From positions 1 to 38,281 of the IMG/VR virus record IMGVR_UViG_3300030339_000122: DNA of 38,281 nucleotides. One strand, written 5' to 3'. Both the position numbers and the translations under genes were made by a program. This document shows positions 10,567 through 36,464 of the stretch, piece after piece (position 1 is the stretch's first letter; the number at the start of each line of letters is the position of its first letter). The notes beneath the pieces were generated by a model, which worked only from the letters and a program-made list of their open reading frames with translations, did no database searches and was not told the origin of the DNA. This DNA comes from a virus.

Positions 10567-10620
10567 TGATATACTCAATTTATTAGGCATTATATAACTA
10601 GCCCCACCGAGGGCTTTTAA
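10567..10620 (+). promoter_or_regulatory. late promoter plus terminator-like leader hairpin (portal)
   Basis: Extended -10 TGATATACT (10567-10575), AGGCAT at 10585-10590, then stem AGCCC/GGGCT (10600-10615) followed by TTTTAATTTT. The hairpin sits between promoter and gene. The same order recurs before five other genes. Confidence 0.65.
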
Positions 10621-10633
10621 TTTTAGGATAAAT

Positions 10634-12844
10634 ATGGCAATACAATACAACAACGGCTCACCATTTCTCGGCGATACATCAGTTGACAATATCGTTAATC
10701 AAACAGGGACGATAGATACTTTAGCACCACTAGATATTGATATCCCAGACATTGATATTATTCGTAACCTTAATATGCGCATTCAAGACTCTCAAGCATA
10801 TTGGGATAGTGCTAAAGGCTTTGATTTAACAGCCCGACGTAATAAGAACGTACGTTATCACTTAGGACACCAGGTAGATACTAATAACCTCTATCGTTAT
10901 CAAACACCCTACATTGAGAATGAGCTATTCGTTGGCCTAGAATCTATCCTTGCCTATACAACTGCACAGCAGGCACAGCCAGAGATTTACCCAGCTCAAG
11001 ATACTGACCGTTCAAAGATATTTGCCCAAGACTTAGAAAAAGCACTCATGTCCCACTCACAAAAGTTTGACCTAATGGCCCTAGTCGAAGTTGCTGTGCG
11101 CAACCTCATGCTCAAGCAAATTGGTGTTATTAAACTTAGCTATAACCCTGACTATGGTAAGAACGGTGAAGTTATCCCAACTGCCCCTGACCCCGCACAT
11201 ATTATCTTTGATAAGAATGCTGTTAAGGGTGAGAACCCCGAGTTTATTTGCCACGTACTCAAGATGAGTGCGAGTGAAGTATGTGGACGTTGGCCTAAAA
11301 AGAAAAAAGAAATTATGGATGCTCTTGGTATTAAACGTGAAGGCTATAAGAATATGGAGCAAGAGGTAGCAATTTCCGAGGTGTGGCTTACTTACTACGA
11401 CAAAAACTACAAACCTCAAGAAGGACTAGTTTATTACTTTGGTAAGGTAGTGCTTGAAAAGAATAAGAACCCCAACTGGATATACTCTGACGCTAACCGT
11501 AACTTCCTTGATACCCCATTAAAGCCATTTATATTACTAAATTTCATTAACGATGGCTCACACGTTATTGACAACACTACACCGTTTGAACAGGCACTAG
11601 GTATGCAAGACGTACTTAACAAGCGTGGCCGTCAGATTATGGAGAATGCAGACCGTGCCAACGGAACACTCGTTATCTCTACCGACTCGGGACTTACTAA
11701 GGATGACGCACAGAACCTTACCGGTGACCCTAACCAGAAACTGCTTATTAAAACCGCTGGTCAACGAACCAGTGATATGATTTACCAAGTTCCACCACAT
11801 GACCTACCTAACTATGTCATTAACGACAAGATGGATGCTCGTACAACTATCCATGCTATTCTCGGTACACCTTCAGACTTCACCGGTGCAGATAACGATG
11901 GCAAGGGTGAAGAAACACTTGGCCAATCTATGCTCAAAAAGAACCAAGCTTCGGGCCGTCAAGACGCAATTGTCCGTGCTATTGACCGCTTTATGGATAA
12001 ATACTTTAACTACCTTACTCATATGATGGCTGTTCACTACGATGAAAAGCATTTCTTTGTATTTAATGGTGGTGACGGTGAGTTTGATTACATCACCATA
12101 TCCCGTGACCTATTTGAAGATGGTATTGCTGTATATGTGAAGGCCGGTACAACCCTACCATTCGATAAGGGACGCCAAGAAGCTGTTTCGCTTAAGCTTG
12201 CCGATATGGGCGTTATATCCCCTCTCGACCTTTATAAAGACCTTCACATGGATAGAATCCAACAACGCTACGACAACTGGTACAAGTATAAGACAGCCCC
12301 AGAGGAGCTTGCTAGGGACGCTCAAGAGAATAATGACCAGTCTGACGCTTTTGTTGCCTATACGGACATTATGAACGGTAAGGATGCCCCCGAGAAGCTT
12401 GACCCTAACCTTGATTACATTCTTTCACTTCGGAAGCTCATGGTTAGTGATGAGTTCCTAAAAGCAGATAAGAAGAAGCAGTCAGCATTCATTAAGTTTG
12501 TTGATAAATGTATTGACTCACTTGACCTACGTAACGCATTAGATGAAATGTCTAAACAGGGCCCTGATGCCCTAAAGCCTGGCGCGCCACAGCAACCTCA
12601 AATGATGCAACAACCACAAATGCCAATGCAACCCGGTATGCAACCGCCAGCTCAACCACCAATGATGCCAAATGGATTACCCCCTAGCGGTGCTGGACAA
12701 CCTCCACAAATGGGATTACTTGGTTCATTCCCACCTCAAGCACCCATAGCCCCATACCCCGAACAGGGTATACCGGGGCTTCAGAATCCTTCAGCACCAC
12801 AGACGCCTAGCCCAGCAAGCGTTACTGGTTTACCAAGCTCCTAA
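10634..12844 (+). CDS. portal protein
   Basis: It forms the dodecameric ring at one capsid vertex through which DNA is packaged. The 736 residues follow terL and precede the scaffold. Visible portal-like features are the N-terminal RIQDSQAYWDSAKGFDLTARRNKNVRYHLG, the wing segments with PDPAHIIFDKNA, and the stem/crown region DMIYQVPPHDLPNYVINDKMDARTTIHAILGTPSDFTGA. A low-complexity Pro/Gln/Met-rich tail covers the last 100 residues. The size matches podovirus portals of the P22 or similar type. The tail is probably disordered and may contact tail or ejection proteins. Confidence 0.88.
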   Translation: MAIQYNNGSPFLGDTSVDNIVNQTGTIDTLAPLDIDIPDIDIIRNLNMRIQDSQAYWDSAKGFDLTARRNKNVRYHLGHQVDTNNLYRYQTPYIENELFVGLESILAYTTAQQAQPEIYPAQDTDRSKIFAQDLEKALMSHSQKFDLMALVEVAVRNLMLKQIGVIKLSYNPDYGKNGEVIPTAPDPAHIIFDKNAVKGENPEFICHVLKMSASEVCGRWPKKKKEIMDALGIKREGYKNMEQEVAISEVWLTYYDKNYKPQEGLVYYFGKVVLEKNKNPNWIYSDANRNFLDTPLKPFILLNFINDGSHVIDNTTPFEQALGMQDVLNKRGRQIMENADRANGTLVISTDSGLTKDDAQNLTGDPNQKLLIKTAGQRTSDMIYQVPPHDLPNYVINDKMDARTTIHAILGTPSDFTGADNDGKGEETLGQSMLKKNQASGRQDAIVRAIDRFMDKYFNYLTHMMAVHYDEKHFFVFNGGDGEFDYITISRDLFEDGIAVYVKAGTTLPFDKGRQEAVSLKLADMGVISPLDLYKDLHMDRIQQRYDNWYKYKTAPEELARDAQENNDQSDAFVAYTDIMNGKDAPEKLDPNLDYILSLRKLMVSDEFLKADKKKQSAFIKFVDKCIDSLDLRNALDEMSKQGPDALKPGAPQQPQMMQQPQMPMQPGMQPPAQPPMMPNGLPPSGAGQPPQMGLLGSFPPQAPIAPYPEQGIPGLQNPSAPQTPSPASVTGLPSS

Positions 12845-12857
12845 CAAGTGGTATAAT
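12829..12857 (+). promoter_or_regulatory. late promoter before scaffold
   Basis: TTTACC, 17 bp, TATAAT with extended TGG. The -35 lies in the end of the portal gene. A short leader with AAGGAG leads to the ATG at 12887. No leader hairpin is present here. Confidence 0.7.
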
Positions 12858-12886
12858 TCGGCTATATAACTAAGGAGAAGCACTGA

Positions 12887-13765
12887 ATGAGCGCAACTAC
12901 CGACCTTGTCGATGCAATGAATGACGACTTATCGCCTAATGAAGAGGTAAATGAAGAAGTAACCGATACCACCGAAGAGTCTAAAGATACTAATGATACT
13001 GGTACGGATGAAGAGAAAACCGAAGATGACGACGATGGATATGTTATCGACGATGAAACTGAAGACGAAACAAAAGAAGAACCAGCCAAACAAACGGCAG
13101 TGGAGAAGCCAACTAATCTTACCGCTGAACAGCAATTCATCTACGACGGACTTCCAACCCTCAGTGTTATAGGGAAAGACGGAACAGTTCGTAATGTTAA
13201 GGTACCCAACGAACTCCCTAATGATTTCGAGTTTGCAAGCTCTCGTGAGCAAGCAAACTTCTTCGCAGCGGTTGCTTCACAAGAACTCAAAGCAAACAAT
13301 CTACAACAAAAGTTTCAGTCTGACGCAAATCAGAAATCAGCCGATGAGTTTGCTACCCGGGAAGACCGCGCTATTACTGACGATATTGCAAATCTCCAAA
13401 AGACTGGTGACCTACCAAAGTTCAAGAAGCAACCAAGCGACCCAGACTTTGACTCAGACCCTACCGCTAAACAAGTAGACGAGATTGTTCAATTCATGCA
13501 GAAGAAGAATGCTGAGTACTTAAAGCGTAACCAAGCCGGTCAAGCATATCGCCACATTGGGTTCGAAGAGGCTTTCTACCTATACCGACGCGAGAATCCT
13601 GAAAAGACACGCTCTGTAGAACAAAAGGCAGAAGATGCACAACGTAAAGAAGTCACTCGTAATGTAAGCGCTAAAGGCTCACCTGCGAATGCGGCTAAGC
13701 GTACACCTATCAACGCCCGCTCTACTCGTGACCTGTATGCCTTCATTGATGGTATGGATGACTAA
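12887..13765 (+). CDS. scaffolding protein
   Basis: It guides capsid assembly and is then lost. The 292 residues show the classic polarity: a very acidic N-terminal 75 residues (long Glu/Asp/Thr stretches), a helical middle (SREQANFFAAVASQELKANNLQQKFQ) and a basic C-terminus (KEVTRNVSAKGSPANAAKRTPINARSTRDLYAFIDGMDD) that would bind the coat. Position between portal and major capsid agrees. Confidence 0.85.
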   Translation: MSATTDLVDAMNDDLSPNEEVNEEVTDTTEESKDTNDTGTDEEKTEDDDDGYVIDDETEDETKEEPAKQTAVEKPTNLTAEQQFIYDGLPTLSVIGKDGTVRNVKVPNELPNDFEFASSREQANFFAAVASQELKANNLQQKFQSDANQKSADEFATREDRAITDDIANLQKTGDLPKFKKQPSDPDFDSDPTAKQVDEIVQFMQKKNAEYLKRNQAGQAYRHIGFEEAFYLYRRENPEKTRSVEQKAEDAQRKEVTRNVSAKGSPANAAKRTPINARSTRDLYAFIDGMDD

Positions 13766-14007
13766 TGAGGAGCTGGCTCAAACTCTACATTGATTTAGAC
13801 CTATTATTACCATTGCTACCACAACTTGATATACTCATTAATGAGCGAACAATTGCCGGTAAACTTTCAATCCGTTTAGATGAGATAATAGTTACCCCGA
13901 AGCAGTTTAAACTATTAAGCCAACAACTCATAGAAGATACACTCCACCGAACACTGTTATATAGGTCAATACCAATTAAAGAAGGAAATACACCCCATGA
14001 ATACTAA
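13765..14007 (+). CDS. hypothetical protein (80 aa)
   Basis: The ATG shares a base with the scaffold stop (TAATG), behind GGATGAC. Leu-rich, mixed charge (WLKLYIDLDLLLPLLPQLDILINERTIAG). Function unknown; possibly an assembly accessory. Confidence 0.6.
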   Translation: MRSWLKLYIDLDLLLPLLPQLDILINERTIAGKLSIRLDEIIVTPKQFKLLSQQLIEDTLHRTLLYRSIPIKEGNTPHEY

Positions 14008-14161
14008 CTGGTTTCTCGCTATACTTGTTATCAAGAAAATAATTGATGAAGATACTGCTACCGAGCTTGCACGTAAGCTTGATATAACTACCTATTCACA
14101 CGACTTTACAGATGCCCTAGAAGATATACAAAAGCTTCTCGATGAAATAGAGTCAGAATAG
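13997..14161 (+). CDS. hypothetical helical protein (54 aa)
   Basis: GAAGGAAA precedes the start, and it overlaps the previous gene by 11 nt. Hydrophobic start (NWFLAILVIKKII), then an acidic helix (DALEDIQKLLDEIESE). Unknown. Confidence 0.55.
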   Translation: MNTNWFLAILVIKKIIDEDTATELARKLDITTYSHDFTDALEDIQKLLDEIESE

Positions 14162-14234
14162 TTGCAATTTCTAGTACACTATATATAATGTAGTTATTAG
14201 GCATCTCCGAAAGCCCTCCACCGAGGGCTTTTTT
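14162..14234 (+). promoter_or_regulatory. major capsid promoter plus perfect terminator-like leader
   Basis: TTGCAA, 16 bp, TATAAT (14184-14189), AGGCAT at 14199-14204. A perfect 8-bp stem AAGCCCTC-cacc-GAGGGCTT (14211-14230) runs into TTTT. By rule this is an intrinsic terminator, yet it sits between the promoter and the most abundant virion gene. AAGGAG follows before the ATG at 14273. Confidence 0.75.
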
Positions 14235-14272
14235 GTTTGCTGAAAAATAACGTAATTAAGGAGCAATATATA

Positions 14273-15364
14273 ATGGCAGGTCAAGTATTTACCGACCGAG
14301 TAATTGATATTACTTACCAAGACATCCTACCGAGCATTGTTGACCAAATCAACAACTCAAACGTTTTCTTGGCTAAAGTTTTAAGCAAACCAGAAAAATG
14401 GAGTGGTGTCACCGAGAACCAACCTATTAGCATTGCGAACTCAACCACTGGTGGTTCATTCGCAGGTTTGGATACATTCCCAACCGCAGCAACAAACAAC
14501 ACCCGTTTACTTACTTGGTACGTCGCAGGTTACGAACAATCAGTTGTCGTCCCTGGTATCGAAAAAGCTATTAACGGCAACAGCGAAAAACAAGTTCTTC
14601 GTTTGCTTACCACTCGTCTTGACGAAGCTAAGATTAGCGCTTCACAAAGCGTTGGACAAATCTTCTACGGTCTTGGTGCGGGTAAAGACTTTGATGGCCT
14701 TGGACTTATTGTTGACAACGGTACTGCAACTGCATCATATGCAGGTCAGACTCGTACAACTAGCCCATTCATCAACGGTGACGTTACTGCTGTTACAGGC
14801 GGTGTTATCACCCTTGACTACCTATCAAGCGAATTTGACAACGTTAGCGCTGCTGGTTCTACATCTGAAAGCCCTACACTTGGTCTTACGACTAAAGCAA
14901 TCTGGACATTTATCGAAGGTGTTATGCAACCAATGGTATCTGCACGTTACGAAACACTCCAACTTAAGGGTTATGACCGTGTTGACGGCGGAACTCCCGT
15001 AGGCACATCAGTCCCAGAAGGTGACGCGCGTCTTTCAGGCTTTGGTGGATTCAACGCCCTAAGCTACCGCGCTCGTCCACTTGTTGCAGACGACAACGCT
15101 ACCGCTCAGACATTCTACTGGATTAACGAAAACTACTTGGCTTTCAAACGTCTTGTAGACTCTGACCTTGTACAAATTGCTTCAACTGTTCAAGTAACAG
15201 AAGGCTACTACAAGGACGTTCCAACACCTAGCGCTTGGCAGTACCGAGACTTGCTCTCACCTGTCAACCAATACGGTGAAGTAGGTCTGTTACTCCTAAT
15301 GGGCAACCTCATCCATAGACAGCCCCGCCGTAACGGAAAACTTCAAAACATTACGTCAAACTAA
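14273..15364 (+). CDS. major capsid protein
   Basis: It is the main shell protein. The start MAGQVFTDRVIDITYQDILPSIVDQINNSN is chosen for its AAGGAG site. The 363 residues have features of HK97-fold coats: a GGSFAGLDTFPTAA stretch, an ALLTW-like strand segment (TRLLTWYVAGYEQSVVVPG), a long spine helix (EKQVLRLLTTRLDEAKISASQSVGQIFYGLG), and a C-terminal YWINENYLAFKRLVDSDLVQ block. It follows the scaffold and has the strongest promoter-leader of the late region, as expected for the most abundant protein. Confidence 0.85.
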   Translation: MAGQVFTDRVIDITYQDILPSIVDQINNSNVFLAKVLSKPEKWSGVTENQPISIANSTTGGSFAGLDTFPTAATNNTRLLTWYVAGYEQSVVVPGIEKAINGNSEKQVLRLLTTRLDEAKISASQSVGQIFYGLGAGKDFDGLGLIVDNGTATASYAGQTRTTSPFINGDVTAVTGGVITLDYLSSEFDNVSAAGSTSESPTLGLTTKAIWTFIEGVMQPMVSARYETLQLKGYDRVDGGTPVGTSVPEGDARLSGFGGFNALSYRARPLVADDNATAQTFYWINENYLAFKRLVDSDLVQIASTVQVTEGYYKDVPTPSAWQYRDLLSPVNQYGEVGLLLLMGNLIHRQPRRNGKLQNITSN

Positions 15365-15390
15365 AAAGATTTCCTATATTTAACCCTTTG

Positions 15391-15405
15391 TGCTACAATA
15401 AGTAC
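15391..15405 (+). promoter_or_regulatory. leaderless promoter of HNH gene
   Basis: Extended -10 TGCTACAAT ends exactly 6 nt before ATG, placing the expected start of transcription on the A of ATG. No ribosome site is present. Confidence 0.6.
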
Positions 15406-15933
15406 ATGGTTAAAAAAGTATCAATCAGCAAAATAGTTTTTACGGAAATGTATGTCAACGAAAAGAAGACTGGGTTAGAAATAGCCCAGTTTTTTGGTAT
15501 CGGAAGAACAACAGTAAGTAGGTATATAGATAGGTATGGGCTAGAGCGTAGAGGAGTATCTGAGGCTCGTAAGTATAAATACTGGGGTATGACTGATGAA
15601 GGTAAGAAAAAGATGTCCGAAAGGTTAAAAGGTAAGTACGGACAAGACCATCCAGGGTATAAAGGTACAAGTTTTACATTAGTAAAGGGATACAGGCGAG
15701 TAAATAGGGAAGGTAAACGAGTATTAGAACATCGCTATATAATGGAAAAACATCTTGGAAGACCACTAACAGATGATGAAGACGTCCACCATATTAATAA
15801 GATTAGGGGAGATAATCGTATTGAAAATCTTCAACTAATGACTAAACGTGAACACATGCAACACCATTGGAATACTGAAAATAAAAGTGAAGTACTCAGT
15901 AAAGCAAAAAAGGAAAAGCGACAATCTAATTAG
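15406..15933 (+). CDS. HNH homing endonuclease with N-terminal HTH
   Basis: The start MVKKVSISKIVF is set by the leaderless promoter. The 175 residues have an N-terminal HTH (KKTGLEIAQFFGIGRTTVSRYIDRYGL) and a C-terminal HNH core (LEHRYIMEKHLGRPLTDDEDVHHINKIRGDNRIENLQLMTKREHMQHH), with HH and N residues of the active site intact. It is a free-standing mobile gene inserted between the capsid and decoration genes. Its A/T-rich codon use differs from that of the capsid gene. Confidence 0.85.
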   Translation: MVKKVSISKIVFTEMYVNEKKTGLEIAQFFGIGRTTVSRYIDRYGLERRGVSEARKYKYWGMTDEGKKKMSERLKGKYGQDHPGYKGTSFTLVKGYRRVNREGKRVLEHRYIMEKHLGRPLTDDEDVHHINKIRGDNRIENLQLMTKREHMQHHWNTENKSEVLSKAKKEKRQSN

Positions 15934-15948
15934 CTTACCATATTTTTC

Positions 15949-16022
15949 TTGCCATCTCACTCAACCTGCCTTATTATAGTAACTAGGCATACAACAAAGC
16001 CCCCTCGTAGGGGCTTTTTATT
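15949..16022 (+). promoter_or_regulatory. late promoter plus leader hairpin
   Basis: TTGCCA, 17 bp, TATTAT (15972-15977), AGGCAT (15985-15990). An 8-bp stem AAAGCCCC/GGGGCTTT (15996-16017) is followed by T-rich sequence and then AAAGGAG. Same layout as before the portal and capsid genes. Confidence 0.7.
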
Positions 16023-16038
16023 ATTTAAAGGAGAAAAT

Positions 16039-16818
16039 ATGCAAGACGGACCACGATTTTTAACAGACTCAGATATTAGCGTACTAACTACAGTTAAACG
16101 TGAAATCTATGGAACCATTGGCCAAGCGGCTGACGGACGACGATACCGATACGTCCAGTTCGGTGGAACAGCAACTATTGCCTCAGGACAATTAGTCGTA
16201 GCCCCTGCGGTTACTGCTGCTTACCAAGGTTTAGCTATCCCAGCTGCCGGCGCAAGCGGACAGGTAGCAGCCAACTTAGCACTTAATGCAACTCAAATTG
16301 TTGTAACAAACGGCGCAACTGCAATCACACAAGACCAGTTTGCAGAAGGCTACATTGAAGTACTTGTTGGTGCTGCTGGTGTTACTAGCTCATACCTATA
16401 CAAGATTCGTGGTAACACTGCCGATTCAGTTGGTAGCGCACCTGTAACTGTTTACCTTGCCGAACCACTACGTAATACAACTGCAATTGTTGCCGGTACT
16501 GACACGGTAAACCTTAACGTAAACCTCTCTGCTGGTGTTATTACATCTGCAACAGCTAACGTCCCACAGGGTATTACTATTGCACCAGTTCCTAACACAG
16601 CGTCTGTTACTAACTACGGCTGGGTACTTACGAATGGTCCAGTAGATGTTAAGAATGATGCCGTTGGTACAATCGCAGTCGGTACAGCAATCGGACAGAG
16701 TGTAACAGTAGCTGGTGCGGTTCGTACGGCTACAGCTTCAACTAGCCCAGTTATTGGCTACACTCGTGCCGCTATCACCGCCTCAACTGCAGGCCCAGTA
16801 TACATTTGTATTAACTAA
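16039..16818 (+). CDS. probable capsid decoration / minor virion protein (259 aa)
   Basis: The start MQDGPRFLTDSDISVLTTVKREIYG has AAAGGAG upstream. The rest is Ala/Val/Thr/Gly-rich beta-type sequence (GLAIPAAGASGQVAANLALNATQIVV, GPVDVKNDAVGTIAVGTAIGQ), typical of exposed virion proteins such as decoration proteins. Its own strong promoter and its position next to the capsid gene support high copy number. The assignment is by position and composition. Confidence 0.6.
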   Translation: MQDGPRFLTDSDISVLTTVKREIYGTIGQAADGRRYRYVQFGGTATIASGQLVVAPAVTAAYQGLAIPAAGASGQVAANLALNATQIVVTNGATAITQDQFAEGYIEVLVGAAGVTSSYLYKIRGNTADSVGSAPVTVYLAEPLRNTTAIVAGTDTVNLNVNLSAGVITSATANVPQGITIAPVPNTASVTNYGWVLTNGPVDVKNDAVGTIAVGTAIGQSVTVAGAVRTATASTSPVIGYTRAAITASTAGPVYICIN

Positions 16819-16862
16819 TTCTTACATAAGAATCTAAACCATAACTCTTAAAGGAGAAAATC

Positions 16863-17363
16863 ATGGCAAAACTAATAGAGAAATACGTTTCCGTTGTTCG
16901 CTTAAACCGAGGTATTACTACTGCTTACCCTGTTACACTCAGTGGTAGTACGTCAAACTTAACCGTTGGTGGTACATTGACAGTAACAGGCAATACTTTT
17001 GGAATTACAACACCATTAGTTCAAAGTGCTCTTGTTGGTGCAACAGTAGTTCTTACAGCTGTACAATCTGGTGGCGTATTCCAAAACCGTTCAACAAGTG
17101 GTAGCCCTTCGTGGACACTTCCAGCTGCAACAACTGCAGGACTTGAGTATACGTTTATTACTGCTAATACGACGACTGGCTTCACCATTACAGGTGCACA
17201 AGTTATTCATGCTAAGACAAGTGCTACTGGTACGGCAATCACAACAACAACAACCTTGACTAATACTCAGGCTACAGCTGTTGTAGGTGATGCAATCACT
17301 ATTGTAAGTGATGGTACAGCATGGTGGATTACCGCCCAAACTGGTATCTTCGCAGCTTCATAG
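16863..17363 (+). CDS. Thr/Gly-rich virion protein (166 aa)
   Basis: AAAGGAG precedes the start. Beta-rich sequence (LSGSTSNLTVGGTLTVTGNTFGITTP, SPSWTLPAATTAGLEYTFITANTTTGFTITG) resembles phage fibre or head-decoration domains in which GLEYTFxxAN recurs. Probably a surface virion protein transcribed with the preceding gene. Confidence 0.6.
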   Translation: MAKLIEKYVSVVRLNRGITTAYPVTLSGSTSNLTVGGTLTVTGNTFGITTPLVQSALVGATVVLTAVQSGGVFQNRSTSGSPSWTLPAATTAGLEYTFITANTTTGFTITGAQVIHAKTSATGTAITTTTTLTNTQATAVVGDAITIVSDGTAWWITAQTGIFAAS

Positions 17364-17381
17364 TAAATAAACAAAAAAGAG

Positions 17382-17408
17382 ACAGCCTTACATTGTAGGG
17401 CTGTTTTG
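17382..17408 (+). terminator. intrinsic terminator
   Basis: ACAGCC pairs with GGCTGT across an 11-nt loop and is followed by TTTTG. It closes the decoration transcript just before a leaderless HNH promoter. Confidence 0.6.
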
Positions 17409-17421
17409 TATGGCTGTTTCT

Positions 17422-17436
17422 TGTTATAATAAAAGT
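17422..17436 (+). promoter_or_regulatory. leaderless promoter of HNH gene
   Basis: Extended -10 TGTTATAAT ends 6 nt before ATG, with no ribosome site, exactly as before the other free-standing HNH genes. Confidence 0.65.
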
Positions 17437-17886
17437 ATGAATAATAAAGTACTTTATGATAAAGAAGATGAGGAGCTAATAAATCAATATAAGTGGTATA
17501 AGCCTCGTTTATACCATCCCCGCAGTAAGACAATGTATGTTACGGGTTATAAAGATGGCAAAAAAGTGTTAATGCACCGCCTAGTAATGCATTCACCCAA
17601 GGGTAATATAGACCATATTAATGGGAATGGTCTTGATAACAGGAAAATAAATCTTAGAGTAGTAACAAGAAGCCAAAATGGTGCTAATAATGATAAGTAC
17701 AAGAATAATACATCTGGGTATAAAGGTGTGTCTTGGCATAAAAAAAGAAAGGTTTGGCAAGCAAGTTTGTCACATAATGGACATACTGTTTTTATTGGTA
17801 GGTTTAACAACCCCATTGAGGCAGCAGTTGCATATGACAAAAAAAGCGTTGAGCTTTTTGGAGATTATTCAAAACATAATTTTTAA
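17437..17886 (+). CDS. HNH endonuclease with AP2-type domain
   Basis: The 149 residues start MNNKVLYDKEDEELI. The HNH core LMHRLVMHSPKGNIDHINGNGLDNRKINLRVVT has all key residues. The C-terminal AP2/ERF-like DNA-binding domain is SGYKGVSWHKKRKVWQASLSHNGHTVFIGRFNNPIEAAVAYDKKSVELFGDYS. It is a free-standing mobile gene with its own leaderless promoter and is similar in layout to the copy at 26145. Confidence 0.88.
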   Translation: MNNKVLYDKEDEELINQYKWYKPRLYHPRSKTMYVTGYKDGKKVLMHRLVMHSPKGNIDHINGNGLDNRKINLRVVTRSQNGANNDKYKNNTSGYKGVSWHKKRKVWQASLSHNGHTVFIGRFNNPIEAAVAYDKKSVELFGDYSKHNF

Positions 17887-17900
17887 TTGTATACAACTTA

Positions 17901-17917
17901 TGTTACAATTCAGGCAT
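17901..17917 (+). promoter_or_regulatory. promoter with AGGCAT motif
   Basis: Extended -10 TGTTACAAT followed 2 nt later by AGGCAT. The leader is short with GAGG before ATG 17938, and there is no hairpin. Confidence 0.5.
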
Positions 17918-17937
17918 AACTTAATTGAGGTCTATCA

Positions 17938-18459
17938 ATGCCACTTATTCAGAACGAAGAGCAACTACAGCAACTAGAAAGTGCGTCTAACGTCAATGTA
18001 ACCTTATTGTTCCAAGAGCGACTTCGTGAACGCTATAAACCCCACGAGTTTGTAAAAGTTATTAACGTCGATGATGAAGACTTTATTTGGCAGTATATGC
18101 CCGAGAGCGGTGAGGAAACCGCACAATCAAGTGATGGTATGCACCGTATCGTTACCCGTACACGACCAGAAGTATGGCTTATCGAACCAGGAGAAACAGA
18201 AGTACTCCAAGGTGCTAATGCTAATGTTATGATTGAAGCCCTCTATAAAAAGATTTCAGCTAAAAGGGTCATCGCTAAAACTCCTAACCAGTCTGCTACT
18301 TCGGCCCGTAACTTTAACTGGACTGACCCAATTGCCCAAGAAGAAGCTATTGACCGCATTTACCTTGGTAAAGAGAAATTAAATTTTGGAGTTACTAAAG
18401 ATGAAGAGCCAACTCGAACTGTTGGACGACCTCCAAAAGTTACATCAGCAGATATCTAA
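17938..18459 (+). CDS. hypothetical virion-region protein with C-terminal GRPPK (173 aa)
   Basis: Acidic helical N-terminus, a central segment FIWQYMPESGEETAQSSDGMHRIVTRTRPEVWLIEPGE, and a C-terminal RTVGRPPKVTSADI resembling an AT-hook core (GRP flanked by basic residues). It lies in the late block. No family recognised; it could be a head-completion or DNA-contacting virion protein. Confidence 0.55.
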   Translation: MPLIQNEEQLQQLESASNVNVTLLFQERLRERYKPHEFVKVINVDDEDFIWQYMPESGEETAQSSDGMHRIVTRTRPEVWLIEPGETEVLQGANANVMIEALYKKISAKRVIAKTPNQSATSARNFNWTDPIAQEEAIDRIYLGKEKLNFGVTKDEEPTRTVGRPPKVTSADI

Positions 18460-18727: not shown

Positions 18728-18738
18728 GGAGTAAATTT

Positions 18739-18882
18739 ATGGATAAAAAAGAAGCTGAGTCAATTATAAAAGAGGCTTGTGCGTTACTTGTAGCAAATCT
18801 TGCCTCACACCAGCGAGTACAAGAAGCACTAAGGGTAATATTTACTCCAGAACCTATTGTAGAAATGCCTGTAAAGAAGTAA
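18739..18882 (+). CDS. small helical hypothetical protein (47 aa)
   Basis: AAGGAG lies before the ATG. Product MDKKEAESIIKEACALLVAN continues with a second helix and PVKK end. Unknown. Confidence 0.55.
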   Translation: MDKKEAESIIKEACALLVANLASHQRVQEALRVIFTPEPIVEMPVKK

Positions 18883-18940
18883 TATATAAACATATAGGCA
18901 TTTTTATTCTAGCCCTTCGCAAGAGGGTTTTTTATTTTTT
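18883..18940 (+). promoter_or_regulatory. promoter-like AT-rich start, AGGCAT motif and leader hairpin
   Basis: TATATAAA (18883-18890), AGGCAT (18896-18901), then CCCTT/AAGAGGG hairpin (18913-18927) with a long T tract, then AAGGAG and ATG 18952. The -35 is unclear, so promoter activity is less sure than the hairpin. Confidence 0.5.
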
Positions 18941-18951
18941 AAGGAGATACA

Positions 18952-19326: not shown

Positions 19327-19334
19327 GAGAAATA

Positions 19335-21411: not shown

Positions 21412-21424
21412 TGGAGACTAGAAC

Positions 21425-22354: not shown

Positions 22355-22361
22355 GACTACC

Positions 22362-25615: not shown

Positions 25616-26132
25616 TAATGGCCCTATTTCGGTATCGGCTTCTGGTACATCACTACAAAATGCTTCTGGTGCTCAGGTTACTTTTAATACTCGGTACCCT
25701 TTTCACAAACTTGATTCTACTAATAATAGTAGCTTTAAAGTCATCACTATACTTATTGGTGTAGAACCGCCTAATCCTGTAGCACCTACGAGTGTTGCTA
25801 CTTATTCAGAAACATTAATTTATTCGTTTGCTCATGGCTATACCTACGTACCATCTACATGGTTTCTTATTTCACTAGACAATTTTCAAACTACTATTGG
25901 CCCAGAAGGTAATGCTTTTTTGGTACAAGGACAAATACCTGGCTCTACTAATGCCATATTAAATATTCGGGTTGATGCAACAAACGTCAATTTTTATATC
26001 ACGAAACGATGGGGGTATATCTTTGGTACACCTGACCCCGTAGCACCCAATGTTGTTGGAACTACCCTTTATGTACGCTCATATGTTTTCGTCGAGGATT
26101 TAGTTGGAAATGGAGTTTCGGTTAACCCATGA
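25608..26132 (+). CDS. tail protein (174 aa)
   Basis: Beta-rich, with IYSFAHGYTYVPSTWFLISLDNFQTTIG. The HGYxYxP element resembles the previous protein and is recurrent in phage tail fibres. It ends just before a leaderless HNH gene whose -10 overlaps the TGA. Confidence 0.6.
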   Translation: MANNGPISVSASGTSLQNASGAQVTFNTRYPFHKLDSTNNSSFKVITILIGVEPPNPVAPTSVATYSETLIYSFAHGYTYVPSTWFLISLDNFQTTIGPEGNAFLVQGQIPGSTNAILNIRVDATNVNFYITKRWGYIFGTPDPVAPNVVGTTLYVRSYVFVEDLVGNGVSVNP

Positions 26133-26144
26133 TATAATAATTTC
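26130..26144 (+). promoter_or_regulatory. leaderless promoter of HNH gene
   Basis: Extended -10 TGATATAAT overlaps the stop of the previous gene and ends 6 nt before ATG 26145. No ribosome site. Confidence 0.65.
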
Positions 26145-26603
26145 ATGGATGAACGTATTCTTTATGATGAAGAGGATAAAGAGTTGGTACTCTCTCATAG
26201 ATGGAGTTTGAAACATTCAAGTTCAAAACAAAAAAAGACATTTTATTATGCACGTACATATATAGATGGAAAGTCTATCACGATGCACAGACTTATTATG
26301 GGTAATCCTATAGATATGGAAATAGATCACATAAACCACGATACCCTAGACAATAGAAGAGGTAATTTGCGGATTGTAACTCATAAAGAAAACATGGCCA
26401 ATAGAAAACCTAATGCATATAGTGAATCGCTTACAATCAAGAATAAATCTGGATTTAGGGGTGTACATTGGGATAAAGAGAGAAGAAGATGGCGGGCGTA
26501 TATAGTAAAAAATGGTAAAAATGTACAGTTGGGAAGATTTGATAATATTCTTGAGGCAGCGGAAGCATACAAAAAGGCAAATGTATTATATAATTCGCAT
26601 TGA
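26145..26603 (+). CDS. HNH endonuclease with AP2-type domain
   Basis: The 152 residues share the architecture of the copy at 17437: YDEEDKELV start, HNH core MHRLIMGNPIDMEIDHINHDTLDNRRGNLRIVTHKENMANR, and AP2-like SGFRGVHWDKERRRWRAYIVKNGKNVQLGRFDNILEAAEAY. It is a free-standing mobile gene between tail genes with its own promoter. Confidence 0.88.
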   Translation: MDERILYDEEDKELVLSHRWSLKHSSSKQKKTFYYARTYIDGKSITMHRLIMGNPIDMEIDHINHDTLDNRRGNLRIVTHKENMANRKPNAYSESLTIKNKSGFRGVHWDKERRRWRAYIVKNGKNVQLGRFDNILEAAEAYKKANVLYNSH

Positions 26604-26673
26604 TAAACACACATAATTAGTGCTATTATAACTTATATAGGCAATTATTTCAGCCCCCAAGGAGGGTTTTTTT
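26600..26673 (+). promoter_or_regulatory. late promoter plus leader hairpin containing the Shine-Dalgarno
   Basis: TTGATA, 18 bp, TATTAT (26624-26629), AGGCAA (26639-26644), weak stem AGCCC/GGGTT (26652-26668) with seven T. The only AAGGAGG lies in the loop and 3' arm of this hairpin, 16-17 nt before the ATG at 26683. Confidence 0.6.
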
Positions 26674-26682
26674 GTATTCATA

Positions 26683-27615
26683 ATGAATTTTGACCAACTA
26701 GCCCAAGACGCCAGCAAACAAGGAGCAGCTAACACAGCTGACTACACTAATAAAGCCAATCAATATGCTGGCGACTATTCTAATTACCAAAATCAGGCTA
26801 ATGCTGCCAGCCAAAATATTCAGGCTCAAAATGACTACATGAAGGGTGCTGGTTCCGCCAATAATCTTTACTCAAATGCTTTTAACACCCAAGCGGGCCA
26901 AACAGGATATAACCAGAATGCCCTACAGCAAGCTCAAGCAGGCTTAACAAATGCAGTTGGTACACAAGCAGCATATAACGATTATGCAGGCCAGGCGGCT
27001 TCTAAATGGGGTCTTAATGCGGGTGGCGTTGCTTCAGCTAATGCTGGTGCAACTCAGGGGTTGAATAACAATATCGCTTCTCAAGGTGGCGCATTGGCTG
27101 CACAGCAAAAAGCTTTCGAACAAGCCCAAACTGGGGCAAACCAACAAACGGGATTAAACCTTCAACAGCAAGCTTCACAATTAGAGGGTTACAAGAATGC
27201 CTTTAACGCAGCTGCTGCACAGCAAAAGACTGCCCAAGACTCTATGCTTGCCTACCAGAAGATGGCCCAAGACCAAGGTGGTCTTACTGCACAACAAGTA
27301 CAAGGCTATCAGCAAGCCAAAGCAAATTCAGCAGCAGCCCAAGCCTCACTCGCGGGTGCTCAGCAAGCCATTGCTCAAGCTCAATATGCTCGTAGCCAAA
27401 CCACTGGCCAAGACCTTGCAAACCAAAAAACACAGTCATACATTAACTCAAATGCTTACCAGAGTTATCTTAATGGCCAAACGGATATTAACGGACAACC
27501 TCTACAAGGAGGAGTGAGTCTATCACCAGCCGTCCAACAATATGGAAATTATGGCCCGGGTGTATCAAGCCTGCAGGGTAGTAATGGTCAATCAATGATG
27601 GTACCTAATTTCTAA
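26683..27615 (+). CDS. Ala/Gln-rich coiled-coil protein, probable ejection protein
   Basis: The 310 residues are extremely rich in Ala, Gln and Asn with few charges (ANQYAGDYSNYQNQANAASQNIQAQNDYMKG, QAKANSAAAQASLAGAQQAIAQAQY) and predict long helices. Such proteins next to large Gly/Ala-rich partners are typical podoviral internal virion or ejection proteins that form a DNA channel during infection. The call is by composition and position. Confidence 0.6.
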   Translation: MNFDQLAQDASKQGAANTADYTNKANQYAGDYSNYQNQANAASQNIQAQNDYMKGAGSANNLYSNAFNTQAGQTGYNQNALQQAQAGLTNAVGTQAAYNDYAGQAASKWGLNAGGVASANAGATQGLNNNIASQGGALAAQQKAFEQAQTGANQQTGLNLQQQASQLEGYKNAFNAAAAQQKTAQDSMLAYQKMAQDQGGLTAQQVQGYQQAKANSAAAQASLAGAQQAIAQAQYARSQTTGQDLANQKTQSYINSNAYQSYLNGQTDINGQPLQGGVSLSPAVQQYGNYGPGVSSLQGSNGQSMMVPNF

Positions 27616-27623
27616 GGATTATT

Positions 27624-29600
27624 ATGAACCCAAATTTTTCACTTAACCCAATCATAGATAACGCGCAAAACGGCCAACAAAGTATGCAAAGTACTTCTGC
27701 CGTATCTCCTGCGGTTCAATACGGAAATGTTATACCACAAATGGGTGGTAGCCAACCAACAAATACTGCACCAAAAGACTCTAGTAACTGGTTTACCCAT
27801 TTACTTCCAACTATTGGAAGTATTGCAGCCCCAATTATTGGCGGATTAGCAACGGGTGGAACTGGTTTACTTGCCGGAAGTGCATTATCGGCAGCTGGTG
27901 GTGCTGGTGGACAGGCGTTAGAAAATTTAATTGAAGGAAAAGACCCATTACAACAAAATGTTGTTGATTCTGGTGTTCAAAATGCCTTTGGTGGATTAGC
28001 TGGTGGATTACTTGGTAAAATTGGTGGCAAATTACTACCTAAGGCAGCTTCTGCATTCGGGAATGCTTCAGATAACCTTATTATGGGTCAAGCTGTACCA
28101 GGTGCTGTTAATAAGCAGCTTGCTAATACTCTTCGAACCCAATATGGCTCTACTAACCTAGCAAAAACAGCTGAAGGCGCACAAATTGCAACTGGTCAAA
28201 ATACTGGTATTGATAAGATTGTTAATTCAATTCTGCAACGTGGAAATGATAATGGTATTAGTACTAAGATTAGTGGGTATGGTCGTTTAGGTAACAAGAT
28301 TAACAGCCCGGAAGTTAATAATGCCGCTGTTGCAAGTGGATTAGGTGAGGGAACTAAGGGCGCGGGTGTTGTTCAATCTTATATTGATACGTTATTACAA
28401 AAATATAACCCTGAAGCTATTACATCTATTAATGGCAAAGCTGGTAACGTAGTAAAAGGTTTTGATAATGGTGTATTAAACACCCAATCGCCCCTAACTA
28501 TTAAAAAGATGACCTCTGATATGGGTAGTACTGCTAGCACCTGGATGTCTTCTCGTGACCCAACAATTATTGCTCAAGGTAAGACACTTCAAACCATTCG
28601 CAATAACTTTAATGACCTTTTGTCTGGCCCTGCTGGTGGTAATGCAATGCCTGTAACGATGGCAGATAAAATAGCAGCTACACAAGAACTAGCGCCATTA
28701 GAAGCAACTAATAAAAGTTTGTATCAGGCTTTAGTTGATAAGATACATAGCCCAGATGTGGCAACTGTTGGAGATTTACGCTCAATTGAAGCCCCACTAG
28801 TACGCTCAAACATTGCCGTTAATAATACTTCTCAAGCAATAGATAAAAGTGGTGGCTTAAGTCTAACAGATATGTTACCAATGGGTGGTGGTGCTGCTGG
28901 TTTTGGCCTGGGCGGTATTCAGGGTGGCGTTACTGGTTACTTAGCAGGCAAAGCCCTAAAAAGTCAGCCAGCTCAAGTTGCTGGTGCGGGGATATTAAGT
29001 CAACTCTCAAAAGTTGCCGGTAGTGATACTGCTAAGAAAATGTTACCTATATTATCAAAAGTTGGTGCAACTACGGCGGTAAACATTCCGACCATGGGCG
29101 CAGGAGCAACACAATCAACTATAGACCAACCTACATTAGGAGGAGAAATGAATAACCAACAAACTGGAATTTCACAACCAGGAAAACAACCGGCCCAGAC
29201 ACCGTATGACCAAATGGTACAAGCTGCGATTGCACAATCAATTTTAGACCCAGGTAATGGTAATGGTGAAGCATTCCTATCAGGAATTGCACCAAAACTA
29301 CAAGCACGTCAAACACTACAGAGTATGTTACCAACACTACAGACAGCCTACGATACAGCTGGTGGTGCTCAAGGTCTTGGCGGTATCGGTTCGATGGCTT
29401 CAAGCTTGTTCCCCGGAACTGCAGCTAATGCCTATCAATCACAGCAACAAGCAGTAGCGGGACAATTGGCAAATACTCTTGGAATATCAAAAGAAGAAGC
29501 ACTTGCTATGTTGCCTCAACTTATGCAGGATTCTGCTACGTCTGCTAACCGAATATCGGGACTTAACAGTATTGTTGGTAGTCTTGCAGGTGGTCGTTAA
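27624..29600 (+). CDS. large internal virion / ejection protein (658 aa)
   Basis: AAGGATT precedes the start. An early Gly/Ala-rich hydrophobic segment (THLLPTIGSIAAPIIGGLATGGTGLLAGSALSAAGG and GGLAGGLLGKIGGKLLPKA, about residues 50-135) has glycine-zipper character and could enter a membrane. The middle is helical, and a second Gly-rich stretch lies near residue 415. The end is Gln/Ala rich. It fits a podoviral ejection protein that crosses the host envelope. Its stop overlaps the stop of a convergent gene. Confidence 0.6.
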   Translation: MNPNFSLNPIIDNAQNGQQSMQSTSAVSPAVQYGNVIPQMGGSQPTNTAPKDSSNWFTHLLPTIGSIAAPIIGGLATGGTGLLAGSALSAAGGAGGQALENLIEGKDPLQQNVVDSGVQNAFGGLAGGLLGKIGGKLLPKAASAFGNASDNLIMGQAVPGAVNKQLANTLRTQYGSTNLAKTAEGAQIATGQNTGIDKIVNSILQRGNDNGISTKISGYGRLGNKINSPEVNNAAVASGLGEGTKGAGVVQSYIDTLLQKYNPEAITSINGKAGNVVKGFDNGVLNTQSPLTIKKMTSDMGSTASTWMSSRDPTIIAQGKTLQTIRNNFNDLLSGPAGGNAMPVTMADKIAATQELAPLEATNKSLYQALVDKIHSPDVATVGDLRSIEAPLVRSNIAVNNTSQAIDKSGGLSLTDMLPMGGGAAGFGLGGIQGGVTGYLAGKALKSQPAQVAGAGILSQLSKVAGSDTAKKMLPILSKVGATTAVNIPTMGAGATQSTIDQPTLGGEMNNQQTGISQPGKQPAQTPYDQMVQAAIAQSILDPGNGNGEAFLSGIAPKLQARQTLQSMLPTLQTAYDTAGGAQGLGGIGSMASSLFPGTAANAYQSQQQAVAGQLANTLGISKEEALAMLPQLMQDSATSANRISGLNSIVGSLAGGR

Positions 29601-29845
29601 GACTCATTGGGTATAACGGTTACTTTTAGTTTCTTATCTTCTGAGTCAAAGTCCATTTCAAATTGTAAATCTTCTTTTGCATCATAACCAAGGCGGTTAG
29701 TTGCTACAAACTTTAGAAATCCACCAATAGCACGGCCATCTTCTTGAAAGTGACGATTGCGTAGTTCATTAATGGCAACAATATACTCTAGTTCATCGGC
29801 AGTTAATTCATATTCTGTTTCTTTATTAGCTTTAATTTTACCCAT
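29597..29845 (-). CDS. small hypothetical protein (82 aa)
   Basis: Last gene of the leftward groESL operon; its stop overlaps the convergent stop of the ejection gene. Charged, with ETEYELTADELEYIVAINELRNRHFQEDGRAIGGFLKFVATNRLGYD. Unknown. Confidence 0.6.
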   Translation of the reverse strand: MGKIKANKETEYELTADELEYIVAINELRNRHFQEDGRAIGGFLKFVATNRLGYDAKEDLQFEMDFDSEDKKLKVTVIPNES

Positions 29846-30093
29846 TATTTACTCCTATTCAATTTATTAAACATACTTTGTTCTTGCCTTACTAATATAC
29901 TAAACACTGCCTTATATATATACCATTCAGAACCTTGGTCATGTAAACCGGCGAATGATATAGTATAGTTACAACCAACATTATTATCGCCATATTTGTC
30001 TATAAATTCACTATACTTACTAACTGAATCTGTTAAATCGTTAAAATAAAACGTTTCTTCGTAAGCGTAATCTGGCTTAAGTGCTACGCTCAT
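29845..30093 (-). CDS. hypothetical protein (82 aa)
   Basis: The start MSVALKPDYAYEETFYF is preferred because it begins directly after the stop of the preceding operon gene; a longer version would overlap that gene by 50 nt. Mixed alpha/beta. Unknown. Confidence 0.5.
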   Translation of the reverse strand: MSVALKPDYAYEETFYFNDLTDSVSKYSEFIDKYGDNNVGCNYTISFAGLHDQGSEWYIYKAVFSILVRQEQSMFNKLNRSK

Positions 30094-30094
30094 A

Positions 30095-30322
30095 CTATTC
30101 TTTTGGCTTATAACCATAACCTTTTGACTCATCGGGATATTGTTCAATAAACTCAGAATTAAGTTTTCCTTGTTTCCATGGTTGTATTAAATCTCGTTTA
30201 TGTTCGGCCCGTTGCATATCTTGTTGGTATCTCTTATCTGTAATCGCACGTTTTGATACTACTGGTTTTTCACCTTGTGGGTAGTACACTCCGTCTATAA
30301 TGACACCCTGTAACTTTGGCAT
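30095..30322 (-). CDS. hypothetical protein (75 aa)
   Basis: Starts MPKLQGVIIDGVYYPQGEKPVVSKRAITDKRYQQDMQRAEHKRDLIQPW. The GVYYPQGEKP and KRYQQDMQRAEHKRDL blocks recall small phage proteins of unknown role. GGGAGATAAT upstream serves as ribosome site. Part of the leftward operon. Confidence 0.65.
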   Translation of the reverse strand: MPKLQGVIIDGVYYPQGEKPVVSKRAITDKRYQQDMQRAEHKRDLIQPWKQGKLNSEFIEQYPDESKGYGYKPKE

Positions 30323-30323
30323 A

Positions 30324-30584
30324 TTATCTCCCTAGTGATTGATTCTTTTTTAGTAGTTCCTGTTCAGCTTCCCACTCAATAAGTTGTGGGGTTTTAGCTT
30401 CTGAAATACCTACAGGCGTACCGTTATCAGTTGTATAGGTAGGCGCATAACTACCGGGAGTGACGCCCGCTTGTGTGATTGTATTAATTTCTAAGTCTTG
30501 AGGTTCATGCTTATATATCTTATATGTGAGAACTGCAATAACACTTAGTACAATGACGATAAGACTCAGCAGTATATCAGTCAT
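30324..30584 (-). CDS. single-span membrane protein (86 aa)
   Basis: N-terminal span ILLSLIVIVLSVIAVLTYKIY (residues about 4-24) followed by a polar tail ending EWEAEQELLKKNQSLGR. It overlaps the end of groEL by 8 nt. A spanin-like or envelope role is possible but unproven. Confidence 0.6.
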   Translation of the reverse strand: MTDILLSLIVIVLSVIAVLTYKIYKHEPQDLEINTITQAGVTPGSYAPTYTTDNGTPVGISEAKTPQLIEWEAEQELLKKNQSLGR

Positions 30585-32136
30585 GTTTTTGTTCGCGGTC
30601 TTTAAAGGTTACTGCTACCGAAGCGGTTATAAGTTTAGCGACAACTGAAGTTGAGTTGCGCACCACTTCTTTAATAACAGACGCCGGGTCAACAACACCA
30701 ACCTTTATCATATCTACAGGTTTGTAGTTAAAGTCTTCATCACGGAGGTTATACCCAAAGCCTGGTTTCGAGTTTAAGACTTTGTAGGCAGCTTGTTCCG
30801 TGTTATAGCCAGCATTATCTACAAGAGTTTTAAATGGAGCCTTGAAAGCTTCGCCAAAGTATTCAGATTTAGAGCGAAGAAGAACAGTACCACCGCCGGG
30901 AACAATACCACCATCTAAAGCAGCACGTACGGCTGAAATAGCGTCATCGGCACGTAGCTTGACTTCAACCTGTTCAACCTCTGTAGCCCCACCAACACGG
31001 ATAATAGCAACCTTACCGGTTAGCTTTGAAATACGGTCATGTAATGCTTCTCGAGTTCCCTGTGATTCAGATTCAGCCAGTTGTTGGCGTAGGTCATTAA
31101 TACGCTTTTGGGCAACGTCTGATTGACCCTGAGCACCAATAATAGTTGTCTCAAGTTCATTGATGATTACCTTATCAGCACCGCCAAGCATATCTTTAGT
31201 AAATGAGTTAGGATTAGCGCCAATAGTAAGAACTTGGCCACCAGTCACGATTGCAATGTCTTCAAGGAACAATGAACGCATTGGGCCAGAATTAGGAACG
31301 TCTACTACAGTTGCGTTCAAGACACCCTTTAACTTATTAAGAATAAGAGTAGCAAGTGCTTCTTCTTGCACATCGGCAATTATAACTACTTCAGCGCCCT
31401 GGTTGCCACCTTCAATAATCTTACCGATTAATGGGGTAATGTCGGCAGCGGTTCGAAGGGGTTTATCAGAGATAAGAATATCAACGTCTTCATGTACCGA
31501 TTGCACGGCCGTTGGGTCATTAATAAGATTGACGTGCGTAAAGCCCCGGCGGAAATAAAGACCCTTAACAAGTTCGGAGTAAGTGCCCGAACCAGCAAAA
31601 TCCTCTACAATAACACCGCCATCAAGCCCAACTGCACCAATTACATCGGCAATTAGATGGCCTAATGCTTCGTCGCCAGCTGATACAACTGCTACGTGCT
31701 TTAGTAATTTGGAATCAACATCAATTTTAATTTTATCAATCTGTGCAATAATTTCTAAAGCAGTTTTTTCAAGCATCTTTGCTACTTGCATACGATTGTA
31801 GCCAGCACCAATAAGTTTCCGTGCTTCTTTATAAAGGTTACGAGCCAAGATAACTACAGCAGTAGTACCATCGCCTACCTTAGTATTGTTTTTCTTAGAG
31901 GCCTGTACGATTGTCCGAGCAGCCATATTTTCTACAGCGTCTTCAAGATAAACATTCTTTACGTTCGTAACACCATCACGGCTAATCATTGGGTCGCCAT
32001 AAGGAAGCTCTAGGATTGCGTTACCCGCACCCGGCCCATAAGCAGCTTTAGCAACCTTATATATAGCCTCAACACCACGGGCAATTTTTGCATCTAATTC
32101 TTCATCTGAAATAACTTCACGTACTTGTTTACTCAC
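30577..32136 (-). CDS. groEL: GroEL-type chaperonin
   Basis: It is the 60-kDa chaperonin subunit that folds proteins with GroES in an ATP-driven double ring. The start is a GTG (VSKQVREVISDEEL) with GAGG upstream, inside the end of groES. The 519 residues show group I signatures: AYGPGAGNAILE, ISRDGVTNVKNVYLED, NTKVGDGTTAVVILARNLYKEA (ATP site), AVVSAGDEALGHLIADVIGAVGLDGGVIVED, DDAISAVRAALDGGIVPGGGTVLLR. It lacks the Gly-Met-rich C-terminal tail and is about 25 residues shorter than typical GroEL. A phage copy probably helps fold its own capsid or tail proteins or replaces a host chaperonin under stress. Confidence 0.95.
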   Translation of the reverse strand: MSKQVREVISDEELDAKIARGVEAIYKVAKAAYGPGAGNAILELPYGDPMISRDGVTNVKNVYLEDAVENMAARTIVQASKKNNTKVGDGTTAVVILARNLYKEARKLIGAGYNRMQVAKMLEKTALEIIAQIDKIKIDVDSKLLKHVAVVSAGDEALGHLIADVIGAVGLDGGVIVEDFAGSGTYSELVKGLYFRRGFTHVNLINDPTAVQSVHEDVDILISDKPLRTAADITPLIGKIIEGGNQGAEVVIIADVQEEALATLILNKLKGVLNATVVDVPNSGPMRSLFLEDIAIVTGGQVLTIGANPNSFTKDMLGGADKVIINELETTIIGAQGQSDVAQKRINDLRQQLAESESQGTREALHDRISKLTGKVAIIRVGGATEVEQVEVKLRADDAISAVRAALDGGIVPGGGTVLLRSKSEYFGEAFKAPFKTLVDNAGYNTEQAAYKVLNSKPGFGYNLRDEDFNYKPVDMIKVGVVDPASVIKEVVRNSTSVVAKLITASVAVTFKDREQKHD

Positions 32137-32392
32137 TCTTATAACCTCGAATATCATTAATATCAATAAAGGCAAATATCTTATCGCCGTCTTTTACTTG
32201 AGAGTCATCCTTGAAACCCTCAAAGTATATTTTGCTTCCGATTGGAGGTAGGTCTTTAGCGTCTTCATCAGTTACTTTTAATAATATGCCACTTGTCTTT
32301 GTGTCATACTTTTTTTCTACTGTGTAGACTCCTTCCCATTCTTCCGTTAGTTCAACTAATACGTTTCCGTTCATAGGTAAGAGATTTATCAT
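32129..32392 (-). CDS. groES: GroES co-chaperonin
   Basis: The 87 residues start MINLLPMNGNVLVELTEEWEGVYTVEKKY, continuing KTSGILLKVTDEDAKDLPPIGSKIYFEGF, GDKIFAFIDINDIRGY. The LLPMNGNVLVE start and SGILL mobile-loop anchor match GroES. It would cap the GroEL ring. The start is set by a leaderless promoter with TACAAT 6 nt upstream of ATG. The end overlaps the groEL start by 8 nt, ensuring coupled expression. Unlike some phage co-chaperonins (such as T4 gp31), this phage carries both partners. Confidence 0.9.
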   Translation of the reverse strand: MINLLPMNGNVLVELTEEWEGVYTVEKKYDTKTSGILLKVTDEDAKDLPPIGSKIYFEGFKDDSQVKDGDKIFAFIDINDIRGYKSE

Positions 32393-32470
32393 AGACACAT
32401 TGTAGCATAAAAGGTATAATGTCAACTATAAGGCACTAAGCATAGCCCTCTCAACAGGGGCTTATTTTTA
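32392..32470 (+). promoter_or_regulatory. lysis-region promoter plus leader hairpin
   Basis: TAGACA, 17 bp, TATAAT (32415-32420), AGGCA at 32431-32435, stem AGCCC/GGGCT (32444-32462), T-rich tail, then AAGGAG and ATG 32486. It overlaps the divergent groES promoter. Confidence 0.75.
32393..32425 (-). promoter_or_regulatory. leaderless groESL promoter
   Basis: Leftward consensus TTGACA (32420-32425), 15-bp spacer, extended -10 TGCTACAAT, 6 nt, ATG of groES. It overlaps the rightward lysis promoter, so the two cannot be bound by polymerase together. Confidence 0.7.
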
Positions 32471-32485
32471 TTTAAGGAGAAAATC

Positions 32486-36458: not shown

Positions 36459-36464
36459 CGTAGA

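Follow-up and report, generated by a model that had tools for sequence, protein, structure and literature searches.

Terminator-like hairpins behind a 5' tag in the late-gene leaders of a probable Patescibacteria phage and its relatives

Introduction

Little is known about the timing of gene expression in phages of Patescibacteria, and two recent open papers on these phages make no mention of promoters or terminators. With a regulatory module that is widespread and easy to recognise, late genes could be predicted in uncultured phages. The viral record analysed here (G000, 38,281 bp, analysed over its whole length and hereafter called the window), in which terminase, portal and capsid genes are recognisable, raises the question of what a terminator-like hairpin does between the promoter and the start codon of several late genes. 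An earlier note on this DNA had offered two answers: an antitermination or RNA-processing switch keyed to a tag at the 5' end of the mRNA, or 5' hairpins that stabilise late messages.

The phage and its relatives

The nearest annotated phage is TM7 phage DolZOral124_53_65 (MG269973), with 60% capsid and 41% portal identity to the window; the host is therefore probably a Saccharibacterium or Patescibacterium, as judged from this kinship. Capsid homology searches brought up viral contigs with about 80 relatives; a further one sits in L083, a small-genome MAG. The scan of relatives suggested in the earlier note put the pattern beyond doubt: some 60 of them, with capsid identities as low as ~55%, keep the layout of the capsid leader.

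Three other parts of the window were recorded. A GroEL-like phage gene (PHROG chaperonin, E 1e-104) lies on the minus strand at 29597-32425, in an operon with small conserved ORFs that has its own extended -10 promoter and is without an AGGCA leader. About 1.4 kb at 35523-36978 contain no large ORFs but do have, on the minus strand, sites resembling promoters and terminators; Rfam and tRNA searches of this region gave no match, and a non-coding RNA or an origin region is possible. Free-standing genes occur amid the late genes at 15388-15933, 17410-17886 and 26145-26603. They look like mobile insertions, because homologues of all three were found only in L053 and L063 among the compared relatives, and because the first encodes an HNH endonuclease.

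Leader anatomy

Base-by-base reading confirmed the six leaders of the earlier note, each consisting of promoter, AGGCA, hairpin with U tract, and gene (Table 1). The hairpins have stems of 5-10 bp and U-rich tails. AGGCA follows the best -10 by 9, 9, 7, 10, 9 and 10 nt in leaders 1 to 6, in agreement with the 7-10 nt first given; the promoter of gene 18952 is the weak one (-10 match 4/6). Other details had to be revised. The capsid hairpin, originally described as a perfect 8-bp stem with a U run, does end in TTTTTT, but its stem comprises ten pairs. A Shine-Dalgarno (SD) sequence after the hairpin is present in five leaders, but in front of 26683 the sole AGGAGG-like sequence lies inside the hairpin. 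The core AGGCA of the proposed AGGCAT motif is kept, but its last base is not conserved and the word is usually AGGCAA in relatives. An Rfam search of the leaders found no known RNA family.

Table 1. Leaders and associated features in the window
Feature	Coordinates	Strand	Promoter and predicted start	Tag	Hairpin	SD, start codon and remarks
Leader 1 (portal)	10570..10633	+	-10 TATACT 10570-10575; predicted start A10582	AGGCAT 10585-10590	10600-10615 with U tract; short 5-bp stem	SD AGGAT; ATG 10634
Leader 2 (major capsid)	14162..14272	+	-35 TTGCAA 14162; -10 TATAAT ending 14189; predicted start A14196	AGGCAT 14199-14204	14209-14232, 10 pairs, with TTTTTT; d-score 35.6	SD AAGGAG; ATG 14273
Leader 3 (gene 16039; late gene, function unassigned)	15949..16038	+	-35 TTGCCA; -10 TATTAT ending 15977	AGGCAT 15985-15990	15996-16017 with TTTTTATT	SD AAGGAG
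Leader 4 (gene 18952; late gene, function unassigned)	18880..18951	+	weak -10	AGGCAT 18896-18901	18911-18929; T tract	SD AAGGAG
Leader 5 (gene 26683)	26600..26682	+	-35 TTGATA; -10 TATTAT ending 26629	AGGCA 26639-26643	26652-26668, containing AAGGAGG; T tract	ATG 26683
Leader 6 (gene 32486; 55 aa, first in unit with G5-domain gene)	32392..32485	+	-35 TAGACA; -10 TATAAT ending 32420	AGGCA 32431-32435	32444-32462	SD AAGGAG
Candidate trans factor	10324..10566	+				80 aa, two CxxC pairs; between terL and portal, ends just upstream of leader 1
Outer stem of capsid leader	14199-14250					Also in capsid leaders of L002, L003, L007, L013, L027, L030, L033, L043, L045 and L058

As an enriched word by itself AGGCAT was ruled out, its count in the window being at chance (19 found, 19.9 expected). 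It is the combination that stands out: on both strands of the window there are 64 AGGCA sites, and a hairpin with T run follows exactly six of them, which are the six leaders; all six also have a -10 upstream and a gene downstream. Dinucleotide shuffles of the window (n=200) gave on average 0.35 hairpin sites (maximum 3) and 0.08 full modules (maximum 2), as against six. The AGGCAT at 17912, which is without a hairpin and stands behind a -10-like TACAAT just upstream of gene 17938, is probably a chance site.

Terminator signature of the hairpins

Capsid leaders, picked by protein homology alone, were scored for intrinsic terminators with the d'Aubenton-Carafa score, which was developed for E. 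coli. A score of d>0 was obtained for 50 of 63 capsid leaders and for none of 252 shuffled leaders; several of the 13 leaders below zero are hairpins by eye and were missed by the score owing to mismatches. When the most stable hairpin was taken regardless of its tail, the four bases 3' of it were U with frequencies of 0.92, 0.82, 0.78 and 0.75 and A with frequencies of 0.02, 0.07, 0.18 and 0.20, with no comparable excess of U on the 5' side of the stem. The stem pairs vary among 72 distinct hairpins. Hairpin and 3' U tract together are, judged by their sequence, a terminator signature and not an effect of AU-richness. AGGCA is the top pentamer upstream of leader terminators (37/50) as against other terminators (7/96). 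The tail is down to four Us in some distant relatives, and no capsid hairpin was found in L068, L075, L076 or the TM7 phage MG269973.

This asymmetry bears on the second answer of the earlier note, stabilising 5' hairpins. In that case a hairpin lying at the 5' terminus of the RNA, or close to it, would shield abundant late mRNAs from 5'-end-dependent decay, and the U tract would be incidental. Protection of this kind is known from T7 late mRNAs and from ompA mRNA. The position would suit it: in all leaders no more than ~20 nt separate the hairpin from the predicted 5' end, and where AGGCA belongs to the stem (L048, L078) the hairpin begins at +1 to +5. In capsid leaders, moreover, AGGCAA can pair with a UUGCC- or UUGUC-like sequence just past the U tract, with compensatory variants; this outer stem is significant (p<0.05) in 11 of 27 window-clade capsid leaders, versus 2 of 45 other genes. 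Since it pairs the 5' end of the window-clade capsid message it fits protection of that message and adds some weight to stabilisation, and it counts against transcriptional gating, as antitermination does not need it. As a general part of the modules the AGGCAA:UUGCC stem was rejected, being found in capsid leaders only. A stabiliser, however, needs no U tract, and yet the U residues are confined to the 3' side of the stem, where A is nearly absent from the first two positions; the high terminator scores also speak against it, and it leaves the clade-specific sequence tags described below unexplained. We therefore regard stabilisation as an unlikely account of the modules at large. The outer stem can form only in readthrough RNA, where it may protect the capsid message, so that gating and stabilisation may coexist there.

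Predicted transcription start and 5' tag

When 69 modules were aligned on the -10, an A was found at the 7th base past the hexamer in 84%, with a pyrimidine before it, as is normal for a transcription start; the start predicted in this way puts AGGCA at +1 to +5 of the RNA, mostly 6, 8 or 9 bases past the -10. The earlier placing of AGGCA at the mRNA 5' end thus holds as a prediction. The same alignment revealed no strong motif in the spacer between -35 and -10, where no position exceeds about 0.65 bit. Since AGGCA shifts by 1-5 nt against the fixed start, a rigid DNA element is disfavoured and such a floating tag is easier to read as an RNA-level or flexible element. AGGCA forms the 5' arm of the terminator stem in L048 and L078 and is unpaired in the window clade; its sequence is kept in both.

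Relatives without AGGCA still have the terminator at the start of the leader, together with another tag that is common to the leaders of that phage. These tags are ATAAGCCNNNGAGCA in L083 (first base variable, three times), AAGCCTGAGC in L073 (three times), AAGGCCTGAGCC in L072 (twice) and ACGGCC..AGCCC in L059 (twice). The words shared by leaders had a mean length of 7.7 within phages versus 5.2 between phages, in a small hand-collected set. Tags of this clade-specific kind would be expected if a phage-encoded reader co-evolved with them; part of the sharing could come from modules duplicated inside a genome.

Distribution of the modules

When whole records were scanned, most of the nearest relatives with complete genomes had about 5-8 candidate modules each, and the reversed pattern mostly occurred 0-1 times. 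Altogether 83 modules were curated in relatives, with a gap to the -10 of mostly 6-10 nt. The capsid module is present in every AGGCA phage whose available stretch includes the capsid leader, and the module of the 18952 orthologue in most relatives having that gene; portal, 16039 and 26683 orthologues carry it in part of the relatives. Positions compared by orthologue showed no modules at the groEL operon or the early genes of relatives, and other genes have plain promoters with short leaders. The modules thus appear confined to structural genes, which are taken as late from their products.

As a host-wide feature the leader was rejected at the level tested, in genomes that are host-like by inference. 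In 99 small genomes near the L083 genome, TATAAT-AGGCA-AGCC gave 17 matches, about the number in the reversed control (roughly a dozen), and an adjacent terminator was absent at 6 of 7 sites inspected in host-like genomes; a survey of about 284 kb from genomes of this kind came upon just five leader terminators, and not one of the five has AGGCA (0/5). One site in a host-like genome (L224, G036:C21, near 17800) is convincing, with TATAAT, AGGCAAACAGCC and a terminator hairpin with long T tract; it may represent the remnant of a prophage, or else a host gene of the same layout.

The constant arrangement bears on two further readings. That the hairpins are only the ends of upstream transcripts, named in the earlier note as a refuting outcome, is disfavoured because the order of promoter before hairpin is kept in about 80 modules. 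The terminators could instead be fixed attenuators or insulators, which block readthrough from upstream and set a constant fraction of promoter output, with no switching. Several modules do lie directly behind the end of an upstream gene, and stem strength differs between phages and between genes, as this would allow; an insulator would nevertheless be better placed upstream of the promoter, which the kept order promoter-AGGCA-terminator contradicts, and neither AGGCA nor the clade-specific tags would be explained. We consider a fixed device of this kind quite unlikely.

Candidate trans factor

The small zinc-ribbon protein listed in Table 1 is a candidate for the late factor, and is to be taken as a lead, not a result. 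All complete AGGCA phages that were tested have a homologue, as do phages bearing the other tags (L072, L073, L083, L069, L071, L074, L059). The search found none in MG269973, L075 and L076, all of which are without a capsid hairpin. L068 is an exception, in that it has no capsid hairpin but does have a weak homologue. Phylogeny confounds this joint occurrence of tag and zinc ribbon, and phylogenetic dependence weakens every argument from co-occurrence. In several phages the gene stops about 20-35 nt short of the first module's AGGCA; elsewhere hundreds of bases or more lie between them. Four Cys are invariant in 18 homologues. An AlphaFold model of the window protein is all-beta and zinc-ribbon-like (pLDDT 79), and a fold search with it gave nothing significant, the viral library offering just weak hits to proteins of the zinc-ribbon type.

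Similarity to the Com protein of phage Mu is suggestive. The best score against the Com family (PF10122) was 20.7 bits (L269), below the cut-off of 22.9; the window protein had no Pfam Com match and reached 11.8 bits (E 0.38) against PHROG gpCom, and the zinc ribbon of L083 likewise gave no hit with the Com model. The protein might accordingly act on translation, binding the leader hairpin and opening the message as Mu Com does on mom mRNA. Apart from the adjoining gene and the weak Com similarity, this is favoured by the sole SD-like sequence lying inside the hairpin in 9 of 81 distinct modules, and by three L083 leaders that read GCCNNNGAGCA, matching the mom target GCCUGCGAGCA. On the other hand, the SD follows the hairpin in 60 of 81 modules, a U tract is not needed for translational control, most window-clade leaders are without the Com motif, and the zinc ribbon of L083, a phage whose leaders do have it, was not matched by the Com model. 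Translational control of this type is very unlikely in our judgement. Masking of the SD was likewise rejected as a general role of the hairpin, since most SDs are downstream of it.

At L022 14607, L027 10303, L031 10948, L013 15240 and window 26652-26668 the sole SD-like AGGAGG is inside the hairpin, so that hairpin formation would also hide the ribosome site. The L083 leaders near 9949, 13898 and 17612 carry a tag whose pattern is identical to the Mu mom RNA site bound by Com.

Proposed late-gene switch

Taken together, the evidence points to late modules in which host-sigma promoters would be gated by promoter-proximal terminators until a phage factor, recognising the 5' tag, lifts the block; to this reading we give an even chance. 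Host RNA polymerase of the sigma70 type would start at the ordinary promoter of each late unit, within 0-4 nt of AGGCA, and would then meet an intrinsic terminator whose hairpin begins at about +12 to +18. If the hairpin terminates in vivo, the default product would be an RNA of roughly 40 nt, released before the gene. A phage-encoded factor would read the 5' tag on the nascent RNA (AGGCA, probably with the AGCCC arm) and, most likely acting with the polymerase, would allow passage into the gene. With readthrough regulated in this way, all late units would be released together though each has its own ordinary promoter.

The switch keyed to a 5' tag that the earlier note had put forward, by antitermination or RNA processing, draws support from the predicted 5'-end position of the tag, the asymmetric U tracts and the phage- or clade-specific tags; recognition at the RNA level and regulated readthrough are the parts that we infer. 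The identity of the factor is a further step, for which the Com-like zinc-ribbon protein encoded just upstream of the first module is the candidate. The fuller version, in which one small Com-like zinc ribbon reads the tag on several late mRNAs and turns promoter-proximal terminators into readthrough, tag and protein co-evolving as a lineage-specific code, we hold to be unlikely.

Comparison with known systems

Lambdoid phages of the Q type (lambda, 82, 21) have a host-sigma late promoter followed by a terminator, and their late genes are off until the phage factor acts. The modules resemble them in that a terminator separates a host-sigma late promoter from the unit's first gene. There is, however, one late promoter per lambdoid phage and several here; and the DNA site bound by Q is part of the promoter, whereas the element shared here lies at the predicted RNA 5' end and the -35/-10 spacer has no strong motif. 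The structure of lambdoid Q has been described (PMC6606751).

HK022 put RNA is a nascent phage RNA element that acts on termination (PMC9378689). It acts alone and suppresses downstream terminators, whereas here the 5' structure itself looks like a terminator. In the Caulobacter gene transfer agent, GafZ expresses the virion-gene cluster by antitermination (PMC11150451). Its putative binding element lies between -10 and -35, where no such element was found here, and the terminator tested with it comes after the first gene instead of within the leader.

The site read by Mu Com is CC(N)2-3GAG in the loop of a hairpin (PMC6483171). Like the system proposed here, Com/mom combines a small zinc-binding phage protein (two CxxC pairs) with an RNA hairpin near the gene start. 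The motif is present in the three L083 leaders named above and is not general in the window clade. Com is, however, a translational activator of one gene, whereas the modules have a U tract and many targets, and the zinc-ribbon similarity is below the family cut-off.

AlpA of Pseudomonas aeruginosa works on more than one promoter, with intrinsic terminators 54 and 26 nt past the start site (PMC7969949). Several promoters with a terminator right after the start, released by one regulator, are likewise proposed here. AlpA acts, as reported, via an element between -10 and -35, of which no counterpart was found in the modules; the hairpins here are closer to the start and come with a 5' RNA tag, and no AlpA-like protein was identified. 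General Pfam and/or PHROGs scans of about 30 window proteins gave no match to a Q, AlpA or GafZ homologue.

If the switch is real, it would add an RNA-tag route to late-gene antitermination, acting on many promoters at once, and would supply natural families of matching tags and proteins for testing RNA reading by small zinc ribbons. Of the known systems, AlpA and lambdoid Q come nearest to the logic proposed here.
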